Below, one piece after another: positions 43,522 to 56,556 of a DNA stretch of 64,000 nt; the stretch's first letter is position 1; the number at the start of each line of letters is the position of its first letter. The stretch is from Bradyrhizobium sp. CCGB01 (lineage in GTDB: Bacteria; Pseudomonadota; Alphaproteobacteria; Rhizobiales; Xanthobacteraceae), in NCBI RefSeq assembly GCF_024199795.1, contig NZ_JANADK010000001.1, forward strand, positions 2,046,001-2,110,000, in the 5' to 3' direction. The notes beneath the pieces are model-generated. The model made no database searches. It saw nothing but the letters and a program-made list of their open reading frames with translations, and was not told where the DNA came from. The position numbers and the translations under genes are program-made.

Positions 43522-44361
43522 CTAATCCTTGAACAAAATCTGCTCCAGCAGATCGATCCGGCTGATCCGGATGCTGCTGCCGTCGATGACGATGATGCGG
43601 CGGTCCTGGAAACGCTTCAGCATCATCGTGACCCATTGCCGTGTCGACCCGACCATGGCCGCGATCTGGTCATGGGTGATCTTGCGGTTGATGACGACGG
43701 TATCGCCTTCGGCAACGCCATGAAGCTCCGACAAAGTGAGCAGGAACTGGGCCAGCCGTTCGATCACCGAGCGTGTGCCGAGGATCTGCGCCATCGAAGA
43801 ATAGCATTTGCCCTTGGCGATGAGACCGTCAATCAGCGCCAGCGCGAAGCTCGGCATGCCGGTCAGTAATTTCTCGAGCGCGGGGCCGGAGAGGGCCGTG
43901 ATCTCGCAGGCCTCGATGGCGATGCCGGACCACATGTGAATGCCGCCGCCCGATATCTCCGGGCCTCCGATGAAATGTCCGGGCGTCCAATAGGCGAGCG
44001 TGATCTCGCGTCCCGACGGCGCGGTGTAGTAGACCCGCACCTGCCCGCGGCGGATGATGAAGATGCCGTCGTGGCCGTCGCCCTGGCTGAACACCATCTC
44101 GCCCTGCGGCACCGTGATCGTGCGGCCGGCCGCGTGCACGCGCGATTGTTCGGGCACCGACAGCCGATCGAGGAAATGCGCCCCGGCGTTCAGCCCGTCG
44201 ATCGTCTCGCTCATGAACAACGCCGAGCTTGCGGTCTTCGTGCGCGTGCTGCGCACTCGCCGCGTCTTCTCGCGGTCGGTCCAGTCGAACTGAACGCCCG
44301 GGTGATGCCGGTTGGCGAAAGCGGCAGGCTCGGTCGCGGCAGCTTCCTTGAGTATGGTCAT
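43522..44361 (-). CDS. Crp/Fnr-family transcriptional regulator
   Basis: A 279-residue protein. The cyclic-nucleotide-binding-type beta-roll (about 75-190) includes GEMVFSQGDGHDGIFIIRRGQVRVYY, followed by a long helix and a C-terminal winged helix (about 205-275: ITHDQIAAMVGSTRQWVTMMLKRF). There is no N-terminal Cys cluster, so it is not an oxygen-sensing Fnr. Residues 1-49 are a poorly structured extension; MSETIDG at 44214 would give the usual 230 residues. It diverges from the nitrate/sulfonate-type ABC operon and may control it. Confidence 0.85.
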   Translation of the reverse strand: MTILKEAAATEPAAFANRHHPGVQFDWTDREKTRRVRSTRTKTASSALFMSETIDGLNAGAHFLDRLSVPEQSRVHAAGRTITVPQGEMVFSQGDGHDGIFIIRRGQVRVYYTAPSGREITLAYWTPGHFIGGPEISGGGIHMWSGIAIEACEITALSGPALEKLLTGMPSFALALIDGLIAKGKCYSSMAQILGTRSVIERLAQFLLTLSELHGVAEGDTVVINRKITHDQIAAMVGSTRQWVTMMLKRFQDRRIIVIDGSSIRISRIDLLEQILFKD

Positions 44362-44652: not shown

Positions 44653-46074
44653 ATGATCGATTTCAGCTCTGTCAGAACGAGTGCGGCCGTCGTGGCCATC
44701 ACAGTCGCCATGTTCGGTCCATCGCAGGCGGAGACGATACGTGTGGCGGTCGGAACGCAGGATACGACCATCAACTGCGCGACCGGCGGGCTGCTCATTC
44801 GCGAGCTCAAGCTGCTGGAGAAGTTCCTGCCCCATGACGGCAAGTACAAGGATGTCACCTACGACATTCAGTGGAAGAACTTCACCAGCGGCGCGCCGCT
44901 CACCAATGAGATGGTCGCGGGCAAGCTCGATTTCGGTGCGATGGCGGATTTTCCGGGCTCGTTGAACGGCGTGGCGTTCCAGAAGGCGGGACGCCGCAGC
45001 CTCTTCATCAGCGTGTTGTCCGGCAGCACCAAGGGCAGTGGCAATGGCATCGTGGTGCCGTCGGGTTCGCCGGTACAGTCCCTCGACGAGCTCAAGGGCA
45101 AGACCATCTCCGTGCCCTTTGCATCGACCTCGCACGGCATGCTGCTCCGCGCCATCGAGGCCAAGGGCTGGAATCCCGAGACCGACGTCAACATCATTAC
45201 GCAGGCGCCCGAGGTTGCTGGGCCGGCCTTGCAGGCCAACAAGATCGAGGCGCATGCCGACTTCGTTCCGTTCGCCGAACTGTTTCCGTGGCGGGGTTTT
45301 GCGCGCAAGATCTTTGACGGCGCGCAGGCGAACGCACCGACATTCCACGGCGGGCTGGTCGATGCCGAGTACGCCGAAAAATATCCCGAGATCGTCGTCG
45401 CCTATTTGCGTGCCGCGATCGAGGCGGACCGCCTGATTGCCGAGGAACCGGAAAAGTACAGCGAGCTGATCGCAAAGGTGACCGGCATCGAGGCCGAGGT
45501 CGAATATCTCTTCCATGGCCCGCTCGGTCTTCAGACCCGTGACGTGACCTGGAAGCCGGAATACCGCCAGGCAGTCGCAACCTCGATCAAGACGCTGAAG
45601 TTGCTCAAGCGGGCGGATAGCGATCTCGATATCAACCAGTTCGTCACGGACAAATTCATCCGCGTGGCGGCCGCGCAGGCCGGGCGGAACTACGACTCCG
45701 AGCTGAAGAACTATGCGCAGCTTCCGCTTCGAGCCAAGGACGCCGCGACGGGCGCCGAGATCGGCGACTTCAGCCGTGTTGCGCAGATCTGGATCAAGGA
45801 CGAGGCTCATGTCCGCCACTACGCGTCGCCCGAGAACGCCTTGAAAGCGCTCGCCGGCCTTGAAAAGGACGGCAAGACCATCCGCGTCGTCTACGCTCAG
45901 GATCGCGAGACCGGCATCAAGCTGTTCGCAAACCAGGCCTGGTTCGTGCGATCGTCGAGGGGCGAGCTGAGCGCGTTCCTGCTCAAAGACGCGGCGGAAC
46001 GCTGGTCGAAGCAGCATGGCGGCGCGGTGCTCGACTTTGCGGCCGCGCGCGAGTCCCTCGTCGCGAGCCGGTAA
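44653..46074 (+). CDS. Nitrate/sulfonate-type ABC transporter, periplasmic binding protein
   Basis: A 473-residue NMT1/SsuA-like solute-binding protein with a signal peptide (TSAAVVAITVAMFGPSQA). Stretches include AVGTQDTTINCATGGLLIRELKLLEKF, FTSGAPLTNEMVAGKLDFGAMADFPG and LDELKGKTISVPFASTSHGMLLRA. It is about 150 residues longer than SsuA or TauA, with an extra C-terminal domain from about residue 330. GAGGACAATTCG precedes the ATG. Permease and ATPase follow. The ligand is unknown; sulfonates, nitrate, cyanate and pyrimidine precursors are all carried by relatives. Confidence 0.87.
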   Translation: MIDFSSVRTSAAVVAITVAMFGPSQAETIRVAVGTQDTTINCATGGLLIRELKLLEKFLPHDGKYKDVTYDIQWKNFTSGAPLTNEMVAGKLDFGAMADFPGSLNGVAFQKAGRRSLFISVLSGSTKGSGNGIVVPSGSPVQSLDELKGKTISVPFASTSHGMLLRAIEAKGWNPETDVNIITQAPEVAGPALQANKIEAHADFVPFAELFPWRGFARKIFDGAQANAPTFHGGLVDAEYAEKYPEIVVAYLRAAIEADRLIAEEPEKYSELIAKVTGIEAEVEYLFHGPLGLQTRDVTWKPEYRQAVATSIKTLKLLKRADSDLDINQFVTDKFIRVAAAQAGRNYDSELKNYAQLPLRAKDAATGAEIGDFSRVAQIWIKDEAHVRHYASPENALKALAGLEKDGKTIRVVYAQDRETGIKLFANQAWFVRSSRGELSAFLLKDAAERWSKQHGGAVLDFAAARESLVASR

Positions 46075-46078
46075 GGCG

Positions 46079-46879
46079 ATGGCCGCCGCTATCCAGGCAC
46101 GGCCTGCTGGCATCCGATGGGTGGTCCGCGGCCTTTCGATCCTGGCCTGCATCACCCTGTGGCAGGTCGCTTCGACGACGCATCTCAATCTGGGGATCGT
46201 GACCTTCCGCAATGTGCCGCCGCCGGTCGAGGTCGTCCAATCCGCTATCGCCCTGTTTCGTTCGCCGAAACTGGCTGCGCATATCACCAGCAGCCTCTGG
46301 CGCGTGTTCGCGGGCTACGGGGCGGCGGTCGTCATCGGCGTGATCCTGGGATTTGCGATCGGCCGGTCGCGCGCGGCGAGCGACCTCTTGCTGCCGCCGC
46401 TCGAATTGCTGCGGCCGATTCCGGCGGTGGCGTGGATACCGCTGTCGATCCTGATGTTCCCGTCGTCCGAACTGTCGATGATCTACATTACCTTCATCGG
46501 AGCCCTGTTTCCGATCGTGCTGAACACCGTGCACGGTGTTGCGAATGTCGACCGTCGGCTGGTCGCCTCCGCCCGCAGCTTGGGCGCGCGCGGACCGGCG
46601 ATCCTCTGGGAAGTGGTCCTGCCGGACGCTGCGGCCAGCATCGTCACCGGGCTCGCGATCGGCATGGGCACGTCGTGGTTCTGCCTCGTCACCGCGGAGA
46701 TGATCTCAGGCCAGTTCGGCATCGGCTACTACACCTGGGAGGCCTACACGTTGCAGAATTATGCCGACATCATCGTCGGCATGCTGATCATCGGCCTGCT
46801 CGGCATGGGCTCCAGCTGGCTGCTGACGACCGCCGGGCGGCTTCTGATGCCTTGGCGCAGCTCGCGAGTTGCACGATGA
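46079..46879 (+). CDS. Nitrate/sulfonate-type ABC transporter permease
   Basis: A 266-residue inner-membrane protein with about six helices and the binding-protein-dependent loop VASARSLGARGPAILWEVVLPDAAASI. It resembles SsuC/TauC. The ATG at 46079 lies 4 bp after the binding-protein stop, with GTAAGG just before it. A five-codon frame (46876-46893) overlaps its stop and bridges to the ATPase start. Confidence 0.9.
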   Translation: MAAAIQARPAGIRWVVRGLSILACITLWQVASTTHLNLGIVTFRNVPPPVEVVQSAIALFRSPKLAAHITSSLWRVFAGYGAAVVIGVILGFAIGRSRAASDLLLPPLELLRPIPAVAWIPLSILMFPSSELSMIYITFIGALFPIVLNTVHGVANVDRRLVASARSLGARGPAILWEVVLPDAAASIVTGLAIGMGTSWFCLVTAEMISGQFGIGYYTWEAYTLQNYADIIVGMLIIGLLGMGSSWLLTTAGRLLMPWRSSRVAR

Positions 46880-46892
46880 AAGGCGTGGCGTG

Positions 46893-47732
46893 ATGAACAT
46901 TCGGGTCGCGGATATCGACGCGAAGAGCGTCGGTCGCATCGACATCGCCGATGTCTCGATCTCGCTTGGCGAAGGCAGTGATGCGTTCGAGGCGGTGAGC
47001 GGTCTCGACTTTGCCATCGCGCCGGGCGAGCTCGTCTGCATTCTCGGTCCCTCCGGCTGCGGCAAGTCCACGCTGCTCGGCGCGCTGGCCGGACATCTGC
47101 CAATTACAGCCGGCCGGCTCACGGTCGACGGGCAGAAGGTCCAGGGGCCGAGCCCCGATCGGGGAATGGTGTTTCAGCAACATACGCTGTTCCCCTGGAA
47201 ACGGGTGCGCGACAATGTCGCCTTCGGCCCGAAGATGCGGGGACTTGCGAGAAGGGAACGTGACCGCGCCGCCGACGCCATCCTGAGGCTGGTCGGGTTA
47301 TCCGGGTTCGAGGCGTTTTATCCGGCGCAGCTGTCAGGCGGTATGCAGCAGCGTGTCGAGATCGCGCGGGTCCTGATCAACCAGCCGCGAGTGCTGCTGA
47401 TGGACGAACCTTTCAGTGCGCTGGACGCGCAGACGCGCGGCATGATGCAGGAGGTCCTGCTCGACATCTGGAGCAAGATCCCGACCACCACGGTCTTCGT
47501 CACCCACGACATCGACGAGGCATTGTTCCTCGCCGATCGCATCGTCGTGATGAGCGCAAGACCCGGCCGGGTGATCGAGGATGTGGTGCTGCCTTTCGCG
47601 CGGCCACGCAGCCACGATCTCGTCACCGAACCCGAGTTCGTGCGCCTGAAGCGGCATGTCATGCAGCTTCTGCGACAGCCGGAAGGCAGCGAGCCGCTGG
47701 CACGGCTCAGTCCGCTCGGTGTTACACCCTAG
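46893..47732 (+). CDS. Nitrate/sulfonate-type ABC transporter ATP-binding protein
   Basis: A 279-residue ABC ATPase: Walker A GPSGCGKSTLLGALAG, Q-loop MVFQQHTLFPWKRV, signature LSGGMQQRVEIARVL, Walker B VLLMDEPFSALD, and switch His in FVTHDIDEALFLADR. These features are typical of SsuB/TauB/NrtD. The ATG at 46893 overlaps the stop of a five-codon minicistron as TGATG. Its own stop shares the tetramer CTAG with the stop of the convergent luciferase-like gene. Confidence 0.92.
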   Translation: MNIRVADIDAKSVGRIDIADVSISLGEGSDAFEAVSGLDFAIAPGELVCILGPSGCGKSTLLGALAGHLPITAGRLTVDGQKVQGPSPDRGMVFQQHTLFPWKRVRDNVAFGPKMRGLARRERDRAADAILRLVGLSGFEAFYPAQLSGGMQQRVEIARVLINQPRVLLMDEPFSALDAQTRGMMQEVLLDIWSKIPTTTVFVTHDIDEALFLADRIVVMSARPGRVIEDVVLPFARPRSHDLVTEPEFVRLKRHVMQLLRQPEGSEPLARLSPLGVTP

Positions 47733-48709
47733 AACATCCCGCTCGCCGCGAGGGCCTTGCAGACGTGCTGCATCTCGGCCTCGTCCGCGACCATGTCGAG
47801 CATGACAGTGGTCAGGCCCTTCGCCGCGAACTCCTTCAGCTTCGCGCCGATCTCGGCATAGCTGCCGACGAGATAGGGACAGTCGGCCTGGAAGGTCAGG
47901 AACGGCAGCAGCCAGTAGCCGTTGTCGGCGAGCTCGCCGCTCTGGCCGTCATAGAGGCGCCGCTTCCACACGGAGTCGCTGTTCTCCACGGTGAGCGCGA
48001 GCAGCTCGCGATCATCGGAATTGTCGCGGAAGCGCGCCTTTGCCGCGCGCCGCGCCTCGTCGCGTCCCTCGCGGGCGAAAATGCCAAAGTTCATTCCGGG
48101 CGCTTCGAGGCCGCGATCGAGATCGGGCGGCAGCATCTGCATCTTGATGCATCCGGTCTCCTTCGCCACGCGCTGCGCCGCTTCAGACTGGCCCGCGACC
48201 AGGAATTCCGGCATCAGCTCCGCCGGCAAGCGCGGGCGAAGTTGCAGGTTGCTCGCGCGGTAGAACCGTCCCTCGAAATTCACCGGGCGTGGGCTTTCCA
48301 GCAATTGGCGCATCAGCGCGACGAATTCGCCGAGCCTGACATAGCGGTCGGCGTGCGACTGGTCGTCGCCCAGCCCCTGCAGATCGCTGACCGCGGTCCC
48401 CGTGATCATGTTGAGATAGACCTTGCGGCCGTGGAGCTGCGCAAAGGATGAGACGAATTTTGCAGCCGTGAACGGGTGCATGTAGACGGGATTGACCGCG
48501 ATCAGCGGCGAAGATCGCGCCGTCGCAGCCATGATGTGCTGGGCCATCGCCCATGGCTCGACGAATACGTCGTTGCCTTCGAACAGCAAAATGCCTTCGA
48601 AGCCGTTGCGGTCGGCGAACCCAGCCACCCGCATCAGCTCGCCGACATATTTTTTGGGATCGCGGTTGCGCGAGATCGCGGGAAAGACGCGCAGCCGCGC
48701 CGGCGTCAT
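47729..48709 (-). CDS. Luciferase-like (LLM) flavin-dependent monooxygenase
   Basis: A 326-residue bacterial-luciferase-fold enzyme using reduced FMN and oxygen. Family stretches: VGELMRVAGFADRNGFEGILLFEG, VEPWAMAQHIMAATARSSPLIAVNP, RKVYLNMITGTAVSDLQGLGDD and ADRYVRLGEFVALMRQLL. It is close in length to alkanesulfonate monooxygenases, but its start overlaps the phosphopantetheinyl transferase stop (ATGA), tying it to the NRPS locus rather than to the convergent ABC importer. LLM enzymes act as tailoring hydroxylases in many peptide pathways; that role here is an inference. Confidence 0.87.
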   Translation of the reverse strand: MTPARLRVFPAISRNRDPKKYVGELMRVAGFADRNGFEGILLFEGNDVFVEPWAMAQHIMAATARSSPLIAVNPVYMHPFTAAKFVSSFAQLHGRKVYLNMITGTAVSDLQGLGDDQSHADRYVRLGEFVALMRQLLESPRPVNFEGRFYRASNLQLRPRLPAELMPEFLVAGQSEAAQRVAKETGCIKMQMLPPDLDRGLEAPGMNFGIFAREGRDEARRAAKARFRDNSDDRELLALTVENSDSVWKRRLYDGQSGELADNGYWLLPFLTFQADCPYLVGSYAEIGAKLKEFAAKGLTTVMLDMVADEAEMQHVCKALAASGMF

Positions 48710-49437
48710 TCAGCCGCTTCCTGGAGCGGCCAGGCATTGCGCGCGATGGGAAGGCCGCCGGTCGCACGGGAGCCGTCGGCGATCGCGAGACGATGCGAGG
48801 GCGATGGCGAGCACAGCGAGAAGCGCCACGCGTGCGGATCGTCGGCGATGTCGGGCTTGAAGCTGATCTCAATGGCCTCCCGCGACACTTGCATTGCGAA
48901 AGCGTCGAGCGGCAGATTGAGCCCAAACCCCCGCGCCTTCAAATAGGCCTCCTTGAGCGTCCAGTAGTCGAAGAAGCGCTCGATCGCGGCGGGCTCCGGC
49001 AGTCCGCGCAGGGTTTCGACCTCCTCCGGCGCAAAGAAGCGAAGCGCGGTGGACAGCGGCGCGACACGCCGCGACACGGTTTCGACGTCGACCCCGACGG
49101 CCTCATGCCTCGACACGACGCAGGCAACGCAGCCGTCGGCATGGGACAGGCTGAAATGCAGCGCGGTCGAGGTCGCGGGCGCTGCAACAAACGGCCGCCC
49201 GTAGCGGCCGGCCCCGAACGACCAGTCGGAGGGTGCGACGTTGGAGACGACCTGCGACAGCGCCATGCGCAGCATCGCGTGCGCGAAGATATATTGCCGC
49301 CGATGCCGCTCGAACATGAAGCGGTCGGCGCGGATCCGTTCGTCGACCGAGAGCAGGCGGCGGCACGCATCGACCGCGCCCGGCGCGTCAATGGTCTCGA
49401 TCAGTCCGACAAACAGTTCAATTCTGTCGTCTGCCAT
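48706..49437 (-). CDS. Sfp-type 4'-phosphopantetheinyl transferase
   Basis: A 243-residue protein of two similar half-domains. The magnesium and CoA motifs are EAVGVDVETV near residue 114 and WTLKEAYLKARGFGL near 160; FSLSHADGCVACVV is the usual LSHS-like strand. It transfers phosphopantetheine from CoA to the carrier-domain serines of the nearby NRPS. ATG 49437 begins MADDRIELFVG; the frame runs open to 49509 without a better start. The gene for the LLM monooxygenase overlaps its stop by 4 bp. Confidence 0.92.
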   Translation of the reverse strand: MADDRIELFVGLIETIDAPGAVDACRRLLSVDERIRADRFMFERHRRQYIFAHAMLRMALSQVVSNVAPSDWSFGAGRYGRPFVAAPATSTALHFSLSHADGCVACVVSRHEAVGVDVETVSRRVAPLSTALRFFAPEEVETLRGLPEPAAIERFFDYWTLKEAYLKARGFGLNLPLDAFAMQVSREAIEISFKPDIADDPHAWRFSLCSPSPSHRLAIADGSRATGGLPIARNAWPLQEAAE

Positions 49438-49485
49438 TAATTGGGCCCATGGCGTCAGGCGGAGGCCAAATCTCCGACCTGACGG

Positions 49486-49515
49486 AAGAATCAACTGAGC
49501 AAGAATCAACTGAGC
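49486..49515. repeat. Tandem 15-bp duplication
   Basis: AAGAATCAACTGAGC occurs twice without interruption, upstream of the phosphopantetheinyl transferase gene. Copy number may vary between strains. The rest of 49438-49667 shows no gene. Confidence 0.8.
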
Positions 49516-49667
49516 GGACCGCTTCTAACGGTCCACCCGGGCAATTTCTTGTCGATTTGCAGGCCGGTTTACAGGCGCAAGCTTGTGCGAGACCCCAACT
49601 CGACGAGCGAGCGGCCCATATCCGAAAGTGAAGCTCGAGGTTCGTGCGGCGTCCCGGCCGACGAGCC

Positions 49668-49835
49668 TTACTTCTTCTTCTTGGCTTTCTTCGAGCCGCT
49701 GAGCATCGAAAGGCTGGCGTCGACATCCTTGAGCGCGGACTGGAGCTTCTTCTTCTCGGCGCCCAGCAGCTTTTGCAGGGCCTTGCGGTCCTTGTCGCTC
49801 AACGAAGTGCCCTTGGTAAATTTGATGAAACCCAT
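49668..49835 (-). CDS. 55-residue Lys-rich helical protein
   Basis: A 55-residue protein beginning MGFIKFTKGTSLSDKDRKAL, with a central amphipathic helix (KALQKLLGAEKKKLQSALKDV) and a poly-Lys end (KKAKKKK). GGGGGAG before the ATG at 49835 is a strong ribosome site; the open frame upstream to 49913 is not needed. It lies 142 bp after the NRPS stop and 230 bp before the phosphopantetheinyl transferase, same strand. Function unknown; nucleic-acid binding is possible from charge alone. Confidence 0.7.
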   Translation of the reverse strand: MGFIKFTKGTSLSDKDRKALQKLLGAEKKKLQSALKDVDASLSMLSGSKKAKKKK

Positions 49836-49977
49836 AACAAACTCCCCCGGTTGAAAATAATCGTCCAAATCAAAACGGCAGAATAATCTTGCGCGCTGGC
49901 GCCAAATAATCAAGCTGCAACTTTGTCATTCACAGCTTTGGCGAGTGAACCCGTATTCGCCCGTGCTGTACGGCCGG

Positions 49978-52900
49978 TCACGCCGCCCTGCGAGCGAGCA
50001 ATCGGCCGAGCGGCGTGTTGGGTTGGGCAACGGCCGCCTCCAGCAGCGCGACGAGATCCGCCATCCACTCGCCGACCCTGCGACCATCGAGCAGCTCGCC
50101 CTTGTAATTGCATGAGCCGGTGATTCCGGTCGGGCGCTCCTTGAGCATCAGCGATAGCCAGGTCTGGTCGATCGGCAGCACCGGCTGGCCTTCGCGCGCG
50201 ATGTGGCCAATCGATTCCATCGTGATGTCAGGCAGATCGAGCGGCTGGCGCAGCGGATTTTGCAGAGTGAAATAGACCTGAACCAGCGAGGCCGGATCGA
50301 TCCCCTCCTGCTCCAGATGGTCGGCCAGGATGTTGAACGGCAGCTCCTGGCGCGCATGCGCGTCGAGTACGCTCTGCCGCACCCGGGCCAGCGCTTGCGA
50401 GAACGACAGCTCCGGCGTGATTCGGGTGCGAATGATCACCGTGTTCTCGAACGGGCCGACGACCCGGTCGGTGTCCGGCTGGGCGCGATTGGCCATCGCG
50501 GTGGCGACCGAAATGTCGTTACGGTCGGTCTGCGCCAGCAGCAGGGCTTTGAGGCCGGTGAGAAGGCACATGAACAGCGTGCTGTTATGCCGACCGGCGA
50601 ACGCCGTGAGCCGGCCGATCAGCTCTCGCTCGAGGCTGACGGGGTAATGCCCGGTCGACGCGCCCGGGCTTGCTTCACCGTCGAAGACCGGAGCGGCGCC
50701 GCGCAGATTCTCCGTCCAGTCGGTGGCCTGGCGGCGGGCGGCGTCGGTGCCGCACCACCAGCGCTGCCAGCGGGCGACGTCCGAAAAGGCGAGCGGCAGT
50801 TTCGGCAGCGGCACGGACGGACGACCGGCCAGCGCCGCATAGCGGTTGGACAGTTCCTCGAACAGCACGCCGATCGACCAGCCGTCGGCAACGGCATGAT
50901 GCAGCGTCAGCAGCAGCACATGATCGTCGGCATGGAGCCGCAATAGCCGCGCCCGCAACAGCGGCGGCCGCGCGGTGTCGAACGGGGCGTAGGTCTCCTG
51001 CTCGATCAGGAGATCGATCTTCCTGAGTTCGAGGGCTTTGCGCCGCTTATTGTTGTGCGGACGTCCGTCGCCGATGATTTCGATGGTGAGGACGGGTCCG
51101 AGTTCGCTGGGTGTGGCGATGCGGCTGACGGGCTCCTCGCCGCTCCAGCCGAATCCGGTCCGCAGCGATTCGTGGCGGCGCACGATGTCGCCGAACGCTT
51201 GCGCGAGGGTGGCCGGATCGAGCGGGCCCTGGAGGCGGAAGGCAAAGGGCAGGTTGAATACCGGCAAGCCCGGCAGGTTCTGCTCGATCCGCATCATCTG
51301 GTCCTGTGCGATCGAGACTGTCGGAGGCCCGCTTTCAGCGAGCCGCGGCTTGCCTGCGGCCGACTTGCGCGGCTTCGCCGCCACGGCCGCGTCGACCCGC
51401 TGGGCGAGCTCTTCGATCGTCGGCGCCTCGAAGATGGTCTTGATCGGCAGCGACACGCCGAGCGCACGGGCGACGCGCGCCATCGCCTGGCCCGCCAGCA
51501 GCGAATGGCCGCCGAGATCGAAGAAATTATCCGTCACGCCGAGGCTCTCGACCTTCAGCAGGTCGATCCAGATGTCCGAGAGCACTTTTTCGGCGAAGTG
51601 CCGCGCCGGCACGGCGGCATCCGGACCGGACGCTTCCTGCTGCGCCGGCGCCAGCAGCGCCGACCGGTCGATCTTGCCATGGGCATTGAGCGGCACCTGG
51701 TCCAGGAACAGGAATGCGGACGGGATGGCATGGCCCGGCAGCCGGCTCTTCAGGAACTCGCGCAGCTCGCTGGCGCTGCTCTGGCTGCTGGCCCTTGCGA
51801 CGATATGGGCGATCAACCTGACATCGCCGCTCGCCTCGCGGCGCGGCTCGACGATGCCGGCGCTCACGGCGGGATGGTCGGCGAGCGCGTTCTCGACCTC
51901 CTTGAGCTCGATACGGTAGCCGCGGACCTTGACCTGATGGTCGGCGCGGCCGAGGCATTCGATGGTGCCATCAGCGCGGCGGCGGGCGAGGTCGCCGGTC
52001 CGGTACAGCCGCCTGTCTGCCTGGCGCGAGAACGGATCGGGCAGGAAGCGCCGCCGGTTCTGCGCGGGATCGTTGATGTAGCCGCGGCCGACACCGGCGC
52101 CGCCGATGCAGAGCTCGCCGGTCACGCCGACCGGCAGCGGCTGGAGGTTCGGATCGAGCACATAGAGCTGGGTGTTGGGCAGCGCCGCGCCGACCGGAAC
52201 GCTGCTCGTCGCCGCCGCCGGCGCTTTGGTCAGGCGATGCAGCGAGACGTCGTCGGAACATTCCGACGCGCCGTAGGCGTTGATCAGCGGCACTTTAGGG
52301 CAGCGCGCGAACCAGGCATTGCAGAGATCCACGGGCAGCGGTTCTCCGGTCGAGATCAGGAGACGCAGCCTTGCGAAGGCGCGCCGGATCGGCGGCTCAT
52401 TCATGCGATCGAGGATCACGCGCAGCAGCGAAGGCACGATCTCGAGCACCGTGATGCCCTCGCGCTCGATTTCCCGCGCGAGCAGGATCGGGTCCTGCAC
52501 GATCGCGTTGGCACAGACATGGACACGCGCGCCGACCATCGGCCCGGCGAGGAACTGCCACACCGAGATGACGAAGCTCTGCGGCGCGGTCTGCGCGATC
52601 ACGTCCCTCGCCGACAGCCCAAGCTCGGAAATGAGCGACGCCAGATGGTTCGACAGCCCGCGCTGCTCGATCATGACCCCCTTCGGCGCGCCGGACGAGC
52701 CGGACGTATAGATGAGATAGGCGAGGCTCGAGGCAGCGCGCCGCGCGGCGCGGGCCGGCCTGGTCGCCCCTGGCGTGATCGCGTCCTCGAGCTCGGCGAC
52801 ATGGATGCGCTCGACCAGCGGTTCGAGCAGCGCCTCGACCATGGCCGACTGGGCACGCCCGGTCAGCAGCATGCGGGCGCAGCTCGATCCGAGGATGGTC

Positions 52901-55900
52901 GCGAGCCGCGCCGGCGGCTGGTCGGGATCGAGATTGAGGAAGGCCGCGCCTGCGCGCTGCACGGCGATCATCGCGGCGAGCAGGTCGGGGCCGCGATCCG
53001 CAAGCAAGGCGACCACGCTCTCGGCACCGATGCCTTCGCGCGCCAGCCAGCGCGCGGCAGCCTCGCTGCGGCGGGCCAGCTCGCGATAGGTCAGGCTGGC
53101 ACGTCCGTCCGACACCGCAACCGCATTCGGCGTCTTCCTCGCCTGGCGATCGAAGCGTTCGCTGAAATTGCCACGCATGGTGAAATTGGCCGCCATGCCA
53201 TGGCCTTTCGCCAGCAACTGGCGGCGTTCGGCCTCGGTCAGGAGCGGCAGGCGCGAGATGCGCTGCTCGGGATTGGCAATGACGGCCTTGAGCAGAGTCT
53301 TGAACTGCGCGGCCATGTCTTCGATCGTCGCCGCATCTAACAGATCGGTGGCGTATTCGAAGAAGCCGGTGAAGCGGCCGTCGGCCTCGACCAGTTCGAG
53401 CGTGATGTCGAAGCGCGCGACCTTCGGGTCGACCTCCAGCCGCCGCGTCGACAGACCGGGGAAACGTGCCGCCTCGATCGAGGCGTTCTGGAGAATGAAC
53501 ATGATACGGAACAGCGGATTGCCGTCCGTCCTTCGCGCGACCTGGAGCGCACGCAGCACCTCCTCGATCGGGAGGTCCTGATTGCGGTAGGCGTCCAGCG
53601 TGACCTGCCGCACCCGCCGCAAGAATTCGCCAAAGCTCGGATCGCCGCCAAAATCGTTGCGCAGGATCAGGGTGTTGGCGAAGAGCCCGATCAGCCGCTC
53701 GCTCTCGATCTGGTTGCGGTTGGCGATCAGCGATCCGGTCGCGACATCCTCGTGTCCGGTGTGCCGGAACAGCAGGCACTGGAACGCTGCGAGCAGCGTC
53801 ATGAAAGGCGTGACGCCCTGATCCTGGCTCAGCGCGCGCAAATCGGCCGACAGCGTCTTGGAGAATTCGAGATAGTGACGGGCGCCGTGGCCGCTCCAGA
53901 TCTCCGGCCTTGGCCGGTCGGTCCGCAGCGGCAGCGTGGTGAGGCCGTCGAGCTGCGTCCGCCAATAATCGAGCTGTTCCTTTGCCGCCGGCGTCTGCGC
54001 CCAGGACTGCTGCCACAGCGCGAAGTCGCGGTACTGGAAGGCGGGCGAGGGCTGCGTCGCCGCGCTCGTCTTGCGCGCGGCGGCATAATGGATGGCAAGC
54101 TCCTCCCAGAACAGCCGTTGCGACCAGCCGTCGGTGACGAGGTGATGGACGTTGACCACCAGCGCGTGGCTGGATTTGTCGAACGACAGCAGCGTGACCT
54201 TCAGCGGCGGCTCATGCGCCAGATCGAACGGATATTGCGCGAGCTTGAGCGCCTCGCGCCTGACAATCGTGGCCCGCTTGTCCGCAGGACAAGGCTTGAG
54301 CTTGATCCGCTCGAACCGCGGCGGCGATTGCAGCACGCGCTGCGCCGGCTCGCCCTGCCGTTCGACGAAGACCGAGCGCAGCGCCTCGTGGCGCGCGCAG
54401 ATCGCGGCGAGGCTCGCAGAAAGCGCGGCGACGTCGACCAGGCCCTTGAGCAAAGCGACTTCGACGACATTATAATTGTAGCGGGTCGGATCGAGCCGCG
54501 AGAGCACATACATCCGCTGCTGCTGGAACGACAGCGGCGCCTCTGCCGCTACCGCCGGGCGCCATGCGGGCAGCATCGTCTCGCGATGGGTCGTGGCGGT
54601 CTCGACCCAGGCCGCAAGAGCTGAGACCGTGGCGCAATCGAAGATGTCCTCGAACGAGAAGTCGACGTTGAAGCGTTCGCGCAGGCGCGAGCGCATCTGC
54701 GTCGCCGCAAGCGAGTCCGCGCCGAGCGCAAAGACGTCCTGGTCGATGCCCACCTGCGGCAGCTCCAGCAGGCCGGCCCAGATCCCCGCGAGCTGGGTCT
54801 CCAGCGCGTTGCGCGGCAATTGCGCTTCGTCGCCATGCTCCACGGCTGTGATCAGATCGGCCAGCGCGTTGCGCTTGACCTTGCCGCTCGCGCCCTTCGG
54901 CAGTGCGGCCACGCTGCGGATCAGGCTCGGCACCTTGTAGGCCGCAAGACGTTTGCGGGCGAACTGCCGCAGCTGGTCCGATGTTGCTTCGGAATTCGGG
55001 CGCAGCACCACGACGGCGGCGACGTTTTCGCCAAGCTTCTGGTGCGGGACGGCGAACACGCCGGCCTCCAGCACCGCCGGATGGCTCAGCAGGATCTCCT
55101 CGACCTCCAGCGGTGAGATCTTCTGCCCGCCGCGGTTGATGACGTCTTTGATGCGGCCGACGATGAAGAGATAGCCGTCGGCGTCGAGATAGCCGAGGTC
55201 GCCGGTCCTGAACCAGCCGTTGCGGAATGCGGCTCGTGTCGCCGCCTCGTCATTATAATAGCCGCGACTCATGTTCGGCCCGCGCAGCATGATCTCGCCA
55301 TGCTCGCCACTCGCAAGCATGCGGCCCGCCTCGTCCATGATCGCGATCTCGGGGCCCGCGGCGCGGCCGACCGATCCGACCTTGCGCAGCTCGAACGGAT
55401 TGGCCGCGATCTGCGAGGCCGCTTCCGTCATGCCGTAGGTCTCGAGCACGGGAACGCCGAACATCGCCTCCAGCCCGTTCAAAATCGCGGGTGCGAGCGA
55501 CGACGAGGCCGAGCGAATCACCCGCAGCGACGAAGAGCGGGCGCGGTCCGGGTCGGTTTCCGCCGCCGTCAGCAGCGCGCGATGGATGGTCGGCACCGCC
55601 GTGTACCAGGTCGGTTGCAGCTCCCGCAGCGAGCCGAAGAAGGACGATGCGTCGAAACCGTTGGTGCAGATCACGCTGGAGCCCGCGGCGAGCGCCGTCA
55701 GCAGGCCGGAGATCAGGCCGTGGGCGTGAAACAGCGGCAGGGCGTTGAGCAGCCGATCGTGGGGCCGGAGCGACAGCACGCGGCCGGCATTGTATGCGGA
55801 CAGGCATACGTTGCGCTGTGTCAGCGGCACCATTTTCGGCCGCGCCGCCGTGCCTGACGTCAACAGGATGAACGCATCGTCGTCGCCGCGCGAGGCGCCG

Positions 55901-56421
55901 CTGGCGCTCGCAGGGCCGACAACCGGGCCGACGAACGCGCAGCCGCCGAGATTGTCGTCCGGCCCCGGCACGAAATCGATCACCGCGATATCGAGCGCCT
56001 TGGCGACGTCACGACTTGGTGAGTTCATGTCGGCCCGGGTAACGAGCGCGGTCAGCTGCAATTCGCTGAAATAGCGTTGCAGCTCATCGGCCGTCAGATC
56101 GGGATTGACGGGCACGCATGCGCCGGTGGAGGCGACCGCGATCAGCGCGAGCGCGCTGTCGGCGCCGCGCGGCAGCGCAACAGCAATCCGGTCGGCAGGG
56201 GCAATGCCGAGTCCCCGCAGGGTCCGGACCAGTTGCTGGATCAAGTCACCGAGCTTGCCGTAGGTGAGGGCCGGCCGGCCAGGGGCGAGGAGAGCCGGCG
56301 CAGCCGGCGTCTTCCGCGCATAGAAGTCGAGAAGGCCGCCGATGTCGGCAAAGGTCCTGGTTTCGGCGCCTGCGTTGTCCGATCCCTCTCCCGCTCCGGA
56401 TGCAGTGTGCGACAATGCCAT
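49978..56421 (-). CDS. Two-module nonribosomal peptide synthetase, A-T-C-A-T-C
   Basis: A 2147-residue cytoplasmic megasynthase. A1 (about 20-510) has LLTSGTAARPKMVPLTQRN and NALPLFHAHGL, closer to acyl-CoA synthetases than to amino acid adenylators. T1 carries Ser570 (LGADSLAATQM). C1 (about 605-1055) has the active site HHLVTDG. A2 (about 1085-1600) has YLIYTSGSSGAPKGV, YRTGDLARRRADG and GKIDRSAL. T2 carries Ser1640 (LGGHSLLAGQA). C2 (about 1690-2130) has HHAVADG. No thioesterase, reductase or epimerase domain is present, so the chain may leave by condensation onto a free amine. ATG 56421 is chosen; an in-frame TTG at 56454 is possible. A phosphopantetheinyl transferase and an LLM monooxygenase lie downstream. 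Confidence 0.93.
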   Translation of the reverse strand: MALSHTASGAGEGSDNAGAETRTFADIGGLLDFYARKTPAAPALLAPGRPALTYGKLGDLIQQLVRTLRGLGIAPADRIAVALPRGADSALALIAVASTGACVPVNPDLTADELQRYFSELQLTALVTRADMNSPSRDVAKALDIAVIDFVPGPDDNLGGCAFVGPVVGPASASGASRGDDDAFILLTSGTAARPKMVPLTQRNVCLSAYNAGRVLSLRPHDRLLNALPLFHAHGLISGLLTALAAGSSVICTNGFDASSFFGSLRELQPTWYTAVPTIHRALLTAAETDPDRARSSSLRVIRSASSSLAPAILNGLEAMFGVPVLETYGMTEAASQIAANPFELRKVGSVGRAAGPEIAIMDEAGRMLASGEHGEIMLRGPNMSRGYYNDEAATRAAFRNGWFRTGDLGYLDADGYLFIVGRIKDVINRGGQKISPLEVEEILLSHPAVLEAGVFAVPHQKLGENVAAVVVLRPNSEATSDQLRQFARKRLAAYKVPSLIRSVAALPKGASGKVKRNALADLITAVEHGDEAQLPRNALETQLAGIWAGLLELPQVGIDQDVFALGADSLAATQMRSRLRERFNVDFSFEDIFDCATVSALAAWVETATTHRETMLPAWRPAVAAEAPLSFQQQRMYVLSRLDPTRYNYNVVEVALLKGLVDVAALSASLAAICARHEALRSVFVERQGEPAQRVLQSPPRFERIKLKPCPADKRATIVRREALKLAQYPFDLAHEPPLKVTLLSFDKSSHALVVNVHHLVTDGWSQRLFWEELAIHYAAARKTSAATQPSPAFQYRDFALWQQSWAQTPAAKEQLDYWRTQLDGLTTLPLRTDRPRPEIWSGHGARHYLEFSKTLSADLRALSQDQGVTPFMTLLAAFQCLLFRHTGHEDVATGSLIANRNQIESERLIGLFANTLILRNDFGGDPSFGEFLRRVRQVTLDAYRNQDLPIEEVLRALQVARRTDGNPLFRIMFILQNASIEAARFPGLSTRRLEVDPKVARFDITLELVEADGRFTGFFEYATDLLDAATIEDMAAQFKTLLKAVIANPEQRISRLPLLTEAERRQLLAKGHGMAANFTMRGNFSERFDRQARKTPNAVAVSDGRASLTYRELARRSEAAARWLAREGIGAESVVALLADRGPDLLAAMIAVQRAGAAFLNLDPDQPPARLATILGSSCARMLLTGRAQSAMVEALLEPLVERIHVAELEDAITPGATRPARAARRAASSLAYLIYTSGSSGAPKGVMIEQRGLSNHLASLISELGLSARDVIAQTAPQSFVISVWQFLAGPMVGARVHVCANAIVQDPILLAREIEREGITVLEIVPSLLRVILDRMNEPPIRRAFARLRLLISTGEPLPVDLCNAWFARCPKVPLINAYGASECSDDVSLHRLTKAPAAATSSVPVGAALPNTQLYVLDPNLQPLPVGVTGELCIGGAGVGRGYINDPAQNRRRFLPDPFSRQADRRLYRTGDLARRRADGTIECLGRADHQVKVRGYRIELKEVENALADHPAVSAGIVEPRREASGDVRLIAHIVARASSQSSASELREFLKSRLPGHAIPSAFLFLDQVPLNAHGKIDRSALLAPAQQEASGPDAAVPARHFAEKVLSDIWIDLLKVESLGVTDNFFDLGGHSLLAGQAMARVARALGVSLPIKTIFEAPTIEELAQRVDAAVAAKPRKSAAGKPRLAESGPPTVSIAQDQMMRIEQNLPGLPVFNLPFAFRLQGPLDPATLAQAFGDIVRRHESLRTGFGWSGEEPVSRIATPSELGPVLTIEIIGDGRPHNNKRRKALELRKIDLLIEQETYAPFDTARPPLLRARLLRLHADDHVLLLTLHHAVADGWSIGVLFEELSNRYAALAGRPSVPLPKLPLAFSDVARWQRWWCGTDAARRQATDWTENLRGAAPVFDGEASPGASTGHYPVSLERELIGRLTAFAGRHNSTLFMCLLTGLKALLLAQTDRNDISVATAMANRAQPDTDRVVGPFENTVIIRTRITPELSFSQALARVRQSVLDAHARQELPFNILADHLEQEGIDPASLVQVYFTLQNPLRQPLDLPDITMESIGHIAREGQPVLPIDQTWLSLMLKERPTGITGSCNYKGELLDGRRVGEWMADLVALLEAAVAQPNTPLGRLLARRAA

Positions 56422-56556
56422 TCCCTTTTGATCCGATTGAGCTATTCTTCCCAAGACTTAGGGAACGCGTCCAGTCTGAGGTGAAGTTCGGGCCCCAAAA
56501 TCTGTGGTTGAGGGGCCTAAAGCCCTTCGACGGAGTAATGGTCGGGCAGAATCACC

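Follow-up and report, generated by a model that had tools for sequence, protein, structure and literature searches.

An orphan nonribosomal peptide synthetase locus of Bradyrhizobium with a fixed 55-residue microprotein and a recurrent class III nucleotide cyclase

We examined a stretch of 64,000 nucleotides from Bradyrhizobium sp. CCGB01 (contig NZ_JANADK010000001.1, positions 2,046,001 to 2,110,000; hereafter the window) that holds a nonribosomal peptide synthetase (NRPS) locus. The genome containing it (G000) is 9.3 Mb long on a single contig, and its named relatives are Bradyrhizobium. As a preliminary description of this DNA had stated, an NRPS, a 55-residue lysine-rich open reading frame (ORF), an Sfp-type phosphopantetheinyl transferase (PPTase) and an LLM flavin-dependent monooxygenase lie on one strand, the minus strand (Table 1), and the PPTase stop overlaps the LLM start by 4 bases, ATGA. 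The ORFs and an in-frame Pfam scan of the 16 ORFs between 39 and 63 kb also bore out that synthase, activator and flavoenzyme stand together at one place, that the NRPS contains no thioesterase (TE) by Pfam, and that these 16 ORFs include no exporter or siderophore receptor. The locus is under purifying selection: the median dN/dS against relatives is 0.19 for the NRPS (68 comparisons), 0.12 for the LLM (67), 0.12 for the PPTase (67) and 0.113 for the 55-residue ORF (range 0.03-0.58; 66 comparisons), and with such low values all four look like real genes. A chance ORF was considered for the 55-residue gene and rejected on its dN/dS of 0.11 and its homology across diverged loci. The ATG of the NRPS is one base behind AAAAGGG; a TTG two codons on (56415) would be a better-placed start (56410-56430).

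Table 1. Features of the locus and its surroundings, in window coordinates
Feature	Positions	Strand	Basis or remark
NRPS, 2147 aa from ATG	49978..56421	-	ORF and Pfam; A1-T1-C1-A2-T2-C2
A1 domain, acyl-CoA-ligase type	54856..56337	-	nearest solved relatives are oxalate-CoA ligases
A2 domain, limits approximate	51652..53154	-	placed by motif
C2, terminal condensation domain, limits approximate, no TE behind	49981..51309	-	Pfam, motif
55-aa Lys-rich microprotein, directly 3' of NRPS	49668..49835	-	ORF, profile, dN/dS
Sfp-type PPTase, 243 aa	48706..49437	-	Pfam ACPS
LLM flavin-dependent monooxygenase, 326 aa, optional member	47729..48709	-	Pfam Bac_luciferase
NRPS-cyclase intergenic region, 135 bp	56422..56556	none	alignment of 68 distinct sequences
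Class III nucleotide cyclase, SAM - Guanylate_cyc - AAA_16 - TPR, 1155 aa	56557..60024	+	Pfam
Crp-type regulator with cyclic-nucleotide-binding domain	43522..44361		Pfam
Sulfonate/nitrate-type ABC permease and ATPase genes	46016..47732		not conserved with locus

Pfam finds Condensation, AMP-binding, PP-binding and AMP-binding_C twice each in the NRPS, in the order A-T-C-A-T-C (A, adenylation; T, carrier; C, condensation). The C motifs are HHLVTDG in C1 (stretch from residue 757) and HHAVADG in C2 (stretch from 1839), and the T motifs are LGADSL in T1 and LGGHSL in T2. All four are kept with few changes among NRPS relatives, where the HHxxxDG of C2 is likewise present. The PPTase reaches 60.5 bits against ACPS (cut-off 25), which places it in the Sfp type, and it is one of 4 ACPS-domain places in the genome. 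The LLM matches Bac_luciferase at 90.9 bits (cut-off 27.9). Against TIGR03565, the alkanesulfonate monooxygenase family, it scores 80.3 bits where the cut-off is 518.2, and the JGI label "alkanesulfonate monooxygenase" of LLM relatives was rejected.

A named genome collection searched with the LLM gave 64 loci, a set selected on that gene, 63 of them labelled Bradyrhizobium and 1 Frankia sp. RB7. NRPS sequence is present in 63 (L045-L107), together with the PPTase in 62, the small protein in all 63, the cyclase in 61 and the ABC ATPase in 14; the two cyclase-less loci (L082, L088) are contig-end cuts. The NRPS is disrupted in L065 and L080, and a contig end cuts it in L088 and slightly in L082. 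The 64th locus, L108, keeps just a C-terminal LLM piece and the cyclase. The locus labelled Frankia (L101) is a Bradyrhizobium locus at about 81-94% protein identity, and its label is probably wrong.

A less biased sample of 242 Bradyrhizobium genomes was searched with three separate queries, namely the LLM, a microprotein profile (E 1e-5) and the A1-T1 part of the NRPS (E 1e-140), and the results were combined. The A1-T1 part was found at 124 loci in 122 genomes, and the open frame reaches 2000 aa or more in 102. For 101 of these 102 long NRPSs the microprotein gene comes directly 3' on the same strand, the exception being G222. An LLM at least 63% identical occurs anywhere in the genome in 88 of the 102 genomes with a full NRPS, a count from which twelve genomes with weak matches (37-39%) were dropped; 12 of the 14 LLM-less loci were read (G217 and G239 left out) and contain no LLM trace at E 1e-3. 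A PPTase is present at nine of the LLM-less loci with 92-95% identity (L146-L148, L151-L153, L155, L156, L158) and at L154 with 57%, and was not found at L157 and L159. We had regarded NRPS and LLM as a fixed core because the loci had been chosen by LLM, a view rejected once the gene proved optional in the three-query sample. The cluster as drawn in the preliminary description is not supported, the LLM being optional and the PPTase missing at some diverged loci. That description had just listed the 55-residue protein and left out the cyclase, the more constant partners. The cluster should be redrawn: the LLM is optional, the 55-residue ORF is a fixed partner and the class III cyclase is recurrent. 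The ABC genes were also rejected as part of the cluster, with close ATPase relatives (at least 88%) in 14 of 63 named loci.

In the searches made here, the locus is nearly confined to Bradyrhizobium. Plasmid searches gave no microprotein at E 0.1 and one 48% A1 relative, from Methylobacterium, at E 1e-120. Outside the genus the LLM has one match of about 43-44% in a 397-genome sample of the order (G316, E 1e-75) and one of 39% in a 398-genome sample of the phylum (G844, E 1e-60). L123 and L124, when read, were not the same cluster as the window's. In the former (L123:5796-10949, from G316), the 43% LLM relative accompanies a TonB-dependent receptor and a PPTase (43%), possibly a siderophore locus. 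A 38% LLM relative adjoins a stand-alone adenylation protein in L133 (7564-14857) and L134, a different, unnamed cluster; its neighbours in L133 are a carbamoyltransferase and a methyltransferase.

The genus-wide conservation that had been named as support is there, the locus being kept across many Bradyrhizobium. NRPS decay, which had been named as a refutation, does occur but is confined to few genomes. General decay was rejected, as frames shorter than 2100 aa number 3 of 68 (L065, L080, and L088 at a contig end). In the 242-genome sample G102, G183 and G070 have short NRPS frames, and G255 is at a contig end; the NRPS has been lost at G064 (the same as L065), G253 and G096, as at L108. This is a real, conserved orphan NRPS locus.

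The microprotein belongs to no Pfam or NCBIfam family above cut-off in in-frame scans, which gave sub-threshold matches to other families only; there was no match to the MbtH family in either collection. A profile search located it immediately 3' of the L126 NRPS and, in L135 and L136, immediately 3' of stand-alone A-T-C enzymes, and a diverged microprotein (MGFVPYLDFDKLTPDE...) occupies the same place in L103, L105 and L130-L132. Sixteen short A1-T1 frames comprise a broken long NRPS (G102), a contig end (G255) and 14 A-T-C loci; the microprotein is 3' on the same strand in 10 of the 14 and adjacent on the opposite strand in G126. Thirteen microprotein matches, representing 12 loci, have no NRPS in front. 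In seven of these loci (G002, G034, G090, G129, G185, G201, G210) the microprotein follows a flavin adenine dinucleotide (FAD)-dependent oxidoreductase that shares 69-73% identity with a gene product of the NRPS cluster in G063. Where the NRPS has been mostly or wholly lost, the microprotein is cut short in G253, frameshifted in G096 and intact in G064; the remaining matches are the contig end of G255 and the opposite-strand case of G126. The G063 cluster (L126:392-10876) consists of PPTase, LLM, FAD/NAD oxidoreductase (544 aa), NRPS and microprotein on one strand, and its oxidoreductase has relatives beside microproteins elsewhere.

When a protein database was searched with the microprotein profile, 202 of 8000 scored candidates matched at an E value of 1 or less; in the best 120 of the 202, those naming an organism are Bradyrhizobium. 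AlphaFold2 predicts one helix, residues 14-54, with mean pLDDT 71 and pTM 0.38. The helical moment observed for the whole core is reached by 99 of 5000 shuffles, and that of its second half by 78 of 5000.

Four loci (L044, L127-L129) carry a three-module variant made of an A-T-C-A-T protein (NRPS1), the LLM and a second protein, C-A-T-TE, which takes the place of C2; the second protein was assigned by Pfam for L127, and those of L044, L128 and L129 are similar by sequence. None of the four has a separate microprotein. Their NRPS1 tails score 15.6-18.0 bits against the microprotein profile, compared with -1.9 to 1.1 for six other C-termini, and none of 4000 shuffled tails (1000 each) reaches its own tail's score, the highest being 13.2. 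These data suggest that the microproteins are a candidate new family of NRPS helpers. Should the microprotein prove to partner the NRPS, it would represent a helper class that matches no Pfam or NCBIfam family here and is easy to delete and test. Upstream in L127 (3431-5722) are MFS and EamA transporter genes by Pfam, possible exporters, matched by ORF length and start in L044, L128 and L129.

In the window the cyclase is divergent from the NRPS, and many columns of the intergenic alignment, window included, are at least 90% alike. The region holds a TTCCC-N8-GGGAA inverted repeat, a possible operator whose arms are unequally conserved. Guanylate_cyc was assigned by Pfam in the window, L135, L136, L140, L145, L149 and L159, and other cyclases by protein similarity; the scanned L150 frame gave TPR only. 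Grouped by eye, the arrangements fall into ten types, eight of which have a cyclase. Type 1 is the window arrangement, found also at G107 and G122 with a cyclase 72-74% identical. In type 2 (G063, G127) the cyclase is convergent and 3' of the microprotein, the fetched stretch of G063 holding just its last 65 residues. A cyclase-TPR type flanks the A-T-C loci of type 3 (G010, G161, G172, G076, G126), type 4 (G074) and type 5 (G213), and a SAM-type cyclase flanks that of type 6 (G009). The microprotein-less A-T-C loci of type 7 (G262, G075, G076) have a different cyclase immediately 5' in the same orientation, and type 8 comprises the oxidoreductase loci, with a cyclase in 6 of 6 whose flanks are visible. 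Types 9 and 10, without cyclase, are the three-module loci and G222; the A-T-C loci of G200, G244 and G256 were left out of this reading. From the 33 PF00211 places in the 9.3 Mb of G000, about 5-6% of places would be expected to have a cyclase within some 6 kb; since the arrangement types share ancestry, the contrast with 8 of 10 is descriptive and has no P value. The Crp-type regulator is 3.4 kb beyond the LLM, which may be of interest with a cyclase nearby.

The solved structures nearest to A1 are 5ie0 (E 2.9e-115) and 6qjz (5e-115), both plant oxalate-CoA ligases. Against the NCBIfam model FadD7 (PRK05852) it scores 597.7 bits, under the cut-off of 650, and thus stays outside that family. 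The 10-residue code of A2 is V-I-W-E-I-T-A-D-D-K, with Val replacing Asp235. Among 123 sequences with A2 the code is VIWEITADDK in 120 and VIWQITADDK in 3, so that Val is found in 123 of 123; in a second alignment it is found in all nine with A2, the window NRPS among them. One code for diaminobutyrate (Dab) is DIWELTADDK. According to the accessible part of PMC12283262, beta-hydroxylated Dab (beta-OH-Dab) is read by DVWQMIGDDK and Asp235 is present in all alpha-amino-acid A domains. A2 lacks this Asp235 and differs in this from Dab and other alpha-amino-acid A domains; a text search of the open-access literature for the Dab code found nothing. Such a code points to a substrate that has a distal amine and lacks the usual alpha-amine contact. 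The three-module variant, with C-A-T-TE in place of C2, fits C2 as a release domain. An invariant Val235 and a terminal C domain would predict unusual short products, missed by alpha-amino-acid prediction rules.

We propose that this unnamed biosynthetic locus combines an acyl-loading NRPS, release by C2, a microprotein partner and signalling through the cyclase, a proposal that, taken whole, we consider about as probable as its opposite. The PPTase would arm T1 and T2. A1, of acyl-ligase type, would load a short carboxylic acid on T1. The acid loaded by A2 on T2 would have a distal amine but no ordinary alpha-amine contact, being GABA-like or modified in another way at the alpha position. C1 would join the two acids, C2 would release the chain by condensing it with a small free amine or alcohol, in the manner of the last C domain of bacillamide synthetase, and the LLM may add an optional oxidation. 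The divergent cyclase is linked with the locus and perhaps serves the product as sensor or signalling output. A bolder form is tentative, and we consider it rather unlikely: the microproteins, as docking helices detached from an NRPS C-terminus, would be a new trans-acting family of NRPS helpers, and would form with the NRPS and the cyclase a Bradyrhizobium signalling module in which the product of the terminal-C NRPS is a ligand or modulator of a cyclic-nucleotide pathway. The novelty lies in the fixed microprotein and the recurring cyclase, whose roles we infer, and not in the set of large enzymes. If the link to the cyclase is true, the product may act as a signal in nitrogen-fixing bacteria that matter to agriculture.

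Several observations weigh against this proposal. Three more diverged A-T-C loci (45-47%) have no microprotein, and G222 has a long NRPS and an LLM without microprotein or cyclase. The microprotein also lies 3' of FAD-dependent oxidoreductases where there is no NRPS and may therefore serve the oxidoreductases or the cyclase instead. No cyclase was detected at the four three-module loci, nor at G222, by tblastn at E 1e-8. The four fused tails are close relatives and thus probably represent one event; when an earlier, narrower profile was run on all fetched ORFs, one tail scored no more than 8.4 bits (E 4.6), and with a core-only profile this tail was absent from the matches. Over the first half of the microprotein core, helical periodicity does not stand out from shuffled sequences, 1589 of 5000 reaching it. 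Of the 14 residues in the oxalate-ligase stretch YAMTEATHLMSSNP, 7 are different in A1, and oxalate itself is therefore unsupported as its substrate; with this and the score below the FadD7 cut-off, A1 is best called an acyl-ligase domain, presumably for a short acid.

The microprotein could belong to the cyclase system, for example as a small regulator of a cyclase complex, with the NRPS just a frequent neighbour. This fits the six oxidoreductase-microprotein loci with visible flanks, which have a cyclase and no NRPS (G034 is cut by a contig end), the cyclase in 61 of 63 LLM-chosen loci, the other two being contig ends, the cyclases found by protein similarity in the other microprotein arrangements read, and G064, which keeps an intact microprotein after losing most of the NRPS. 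However, the cyclases vary in type (SAM-cyclase-AAA-TPR or cyclase-TPR) whereas the microprotein keeps its place 3' of the NRPS; G253 lost the NRPS and kept the cyclase, and its microprotein frame is cut short; the microprotein is frameshifted at NRPS-less G096; a relative is fused to an NRPS; and three A-T-C loci have a cyclase without microprotein. We consider such a regulator unlikely.

The locus could also be an ordinary orphan NRPS that makes a small amide. The microprotein would then have a minor role, in RNA or DNA binding or in stability, and the cyclase would be a long-lived neighbour by chance. Lys-rich tails generally bind nucleic acids, and Bradyrhizobium can be rich in class III cyclases, as the 33 PF00211 places of G000 illustrate. 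Against chance proximity stands the cyclase in 8 of 10 types, with differing orientation and class, although that contrast with the roughly 5-6% expected is descriptive; we rate this account as possible, on the improbable side. A siderophore or another metal-binding metabolite is very improbable. Siderophore loci commonly hold an NRPS, a PPTase and a flavoenzyme, and in G316 a TonB receptor and a PPTase are found close to the 43% LLM relative, but the 16 scanned ORFs of the window include no TonB receptor or ornithine/lysine hydroxylase, and the ABC importer, judged by its ATPase, is kept in just 14 of 63 named loci. Bradyrhizobium NRPS siderophore clusters have been counted, mostly with malleobactin-like genes, in the accessible part of PMC12815270.

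As the preliminary description supposed, we found no pathway named for this locus in the open-access literature. A named NRPS of B. diazoefficiens, blr2108, is tabulated together with the cupin blr2106 and the Crp-type bll2109 in the accessible parts of PMC6515984 and PMC8632152; we do not equate it with the window gene, and the scanned window ORFs include no cupin, though a Crp-type protein is present. The LLM has SsuD, the alkanesulfonate monooxygenase, as closest solved relative, but the SsuD residues RLHV face a gap in the LLM, which is far below the curated cut-off. For A1 the closest solved relative is the oxalate-CoA ligase AAE3 (PDB 5ie0, 5ie2, 5ie3), from which it differs by fusion to a carrier domain and by the 7 of 14 changed residues. 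MbtH-like proteins are small and encoded beside NRPSs. The microprotein resembles them in both respects and differs in its lack of a family match, its position 3' of the NRPS in 101 of 102, its Lys-rich predicted helix, and its restriction to Bradyrhizobium where a match names an organism (best 120 of 202).

Two known systems come close to the NRPS itself. In the rhabdopeptide NRPS, a terminal C domain (Kj12C) also transfers the chain to a free amine and docking elements stand at protein ends; in contrast to the window enzyme it consists of separate single-module subunits, and its N-terminal docking domain is mixed alpha/beta, the partner binding as a strand by its last five residues (PMC6195595, accessible part). 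Closer is the bacillamide synthetase BmdB/BmdA/BmdC, with two modules (A1-PCP1-Cy2-A2-PCP2-C3), a terminal C domain without TE and a trans-acting flavin enzyme; according to the accessible part of PMC8795117, C3 condenses tryptamine and the flavin mononucleotide (FMN) oxidase docks on A2. The window NRPS shares the terminal C domain and the absence of a TE. Module 2 of bacillamide synthetase has a Cy domain, whereas C1 of the window, compared with the Cy motif, is an ordinary C domain of the HHxxxDG type (HHLVTDG). The window A1 is of acyl-ligase type, and its flavin enzyme is an LLM, that of bacillamide being of nitro-FMN reductase type. No tryptophan decarboxylase is encoded among the 16 ORFs of 39-63 kb, the part of the genome that was searched. 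Relative to the bacillamide system, the window locus adds the microprotein and the cyclase.

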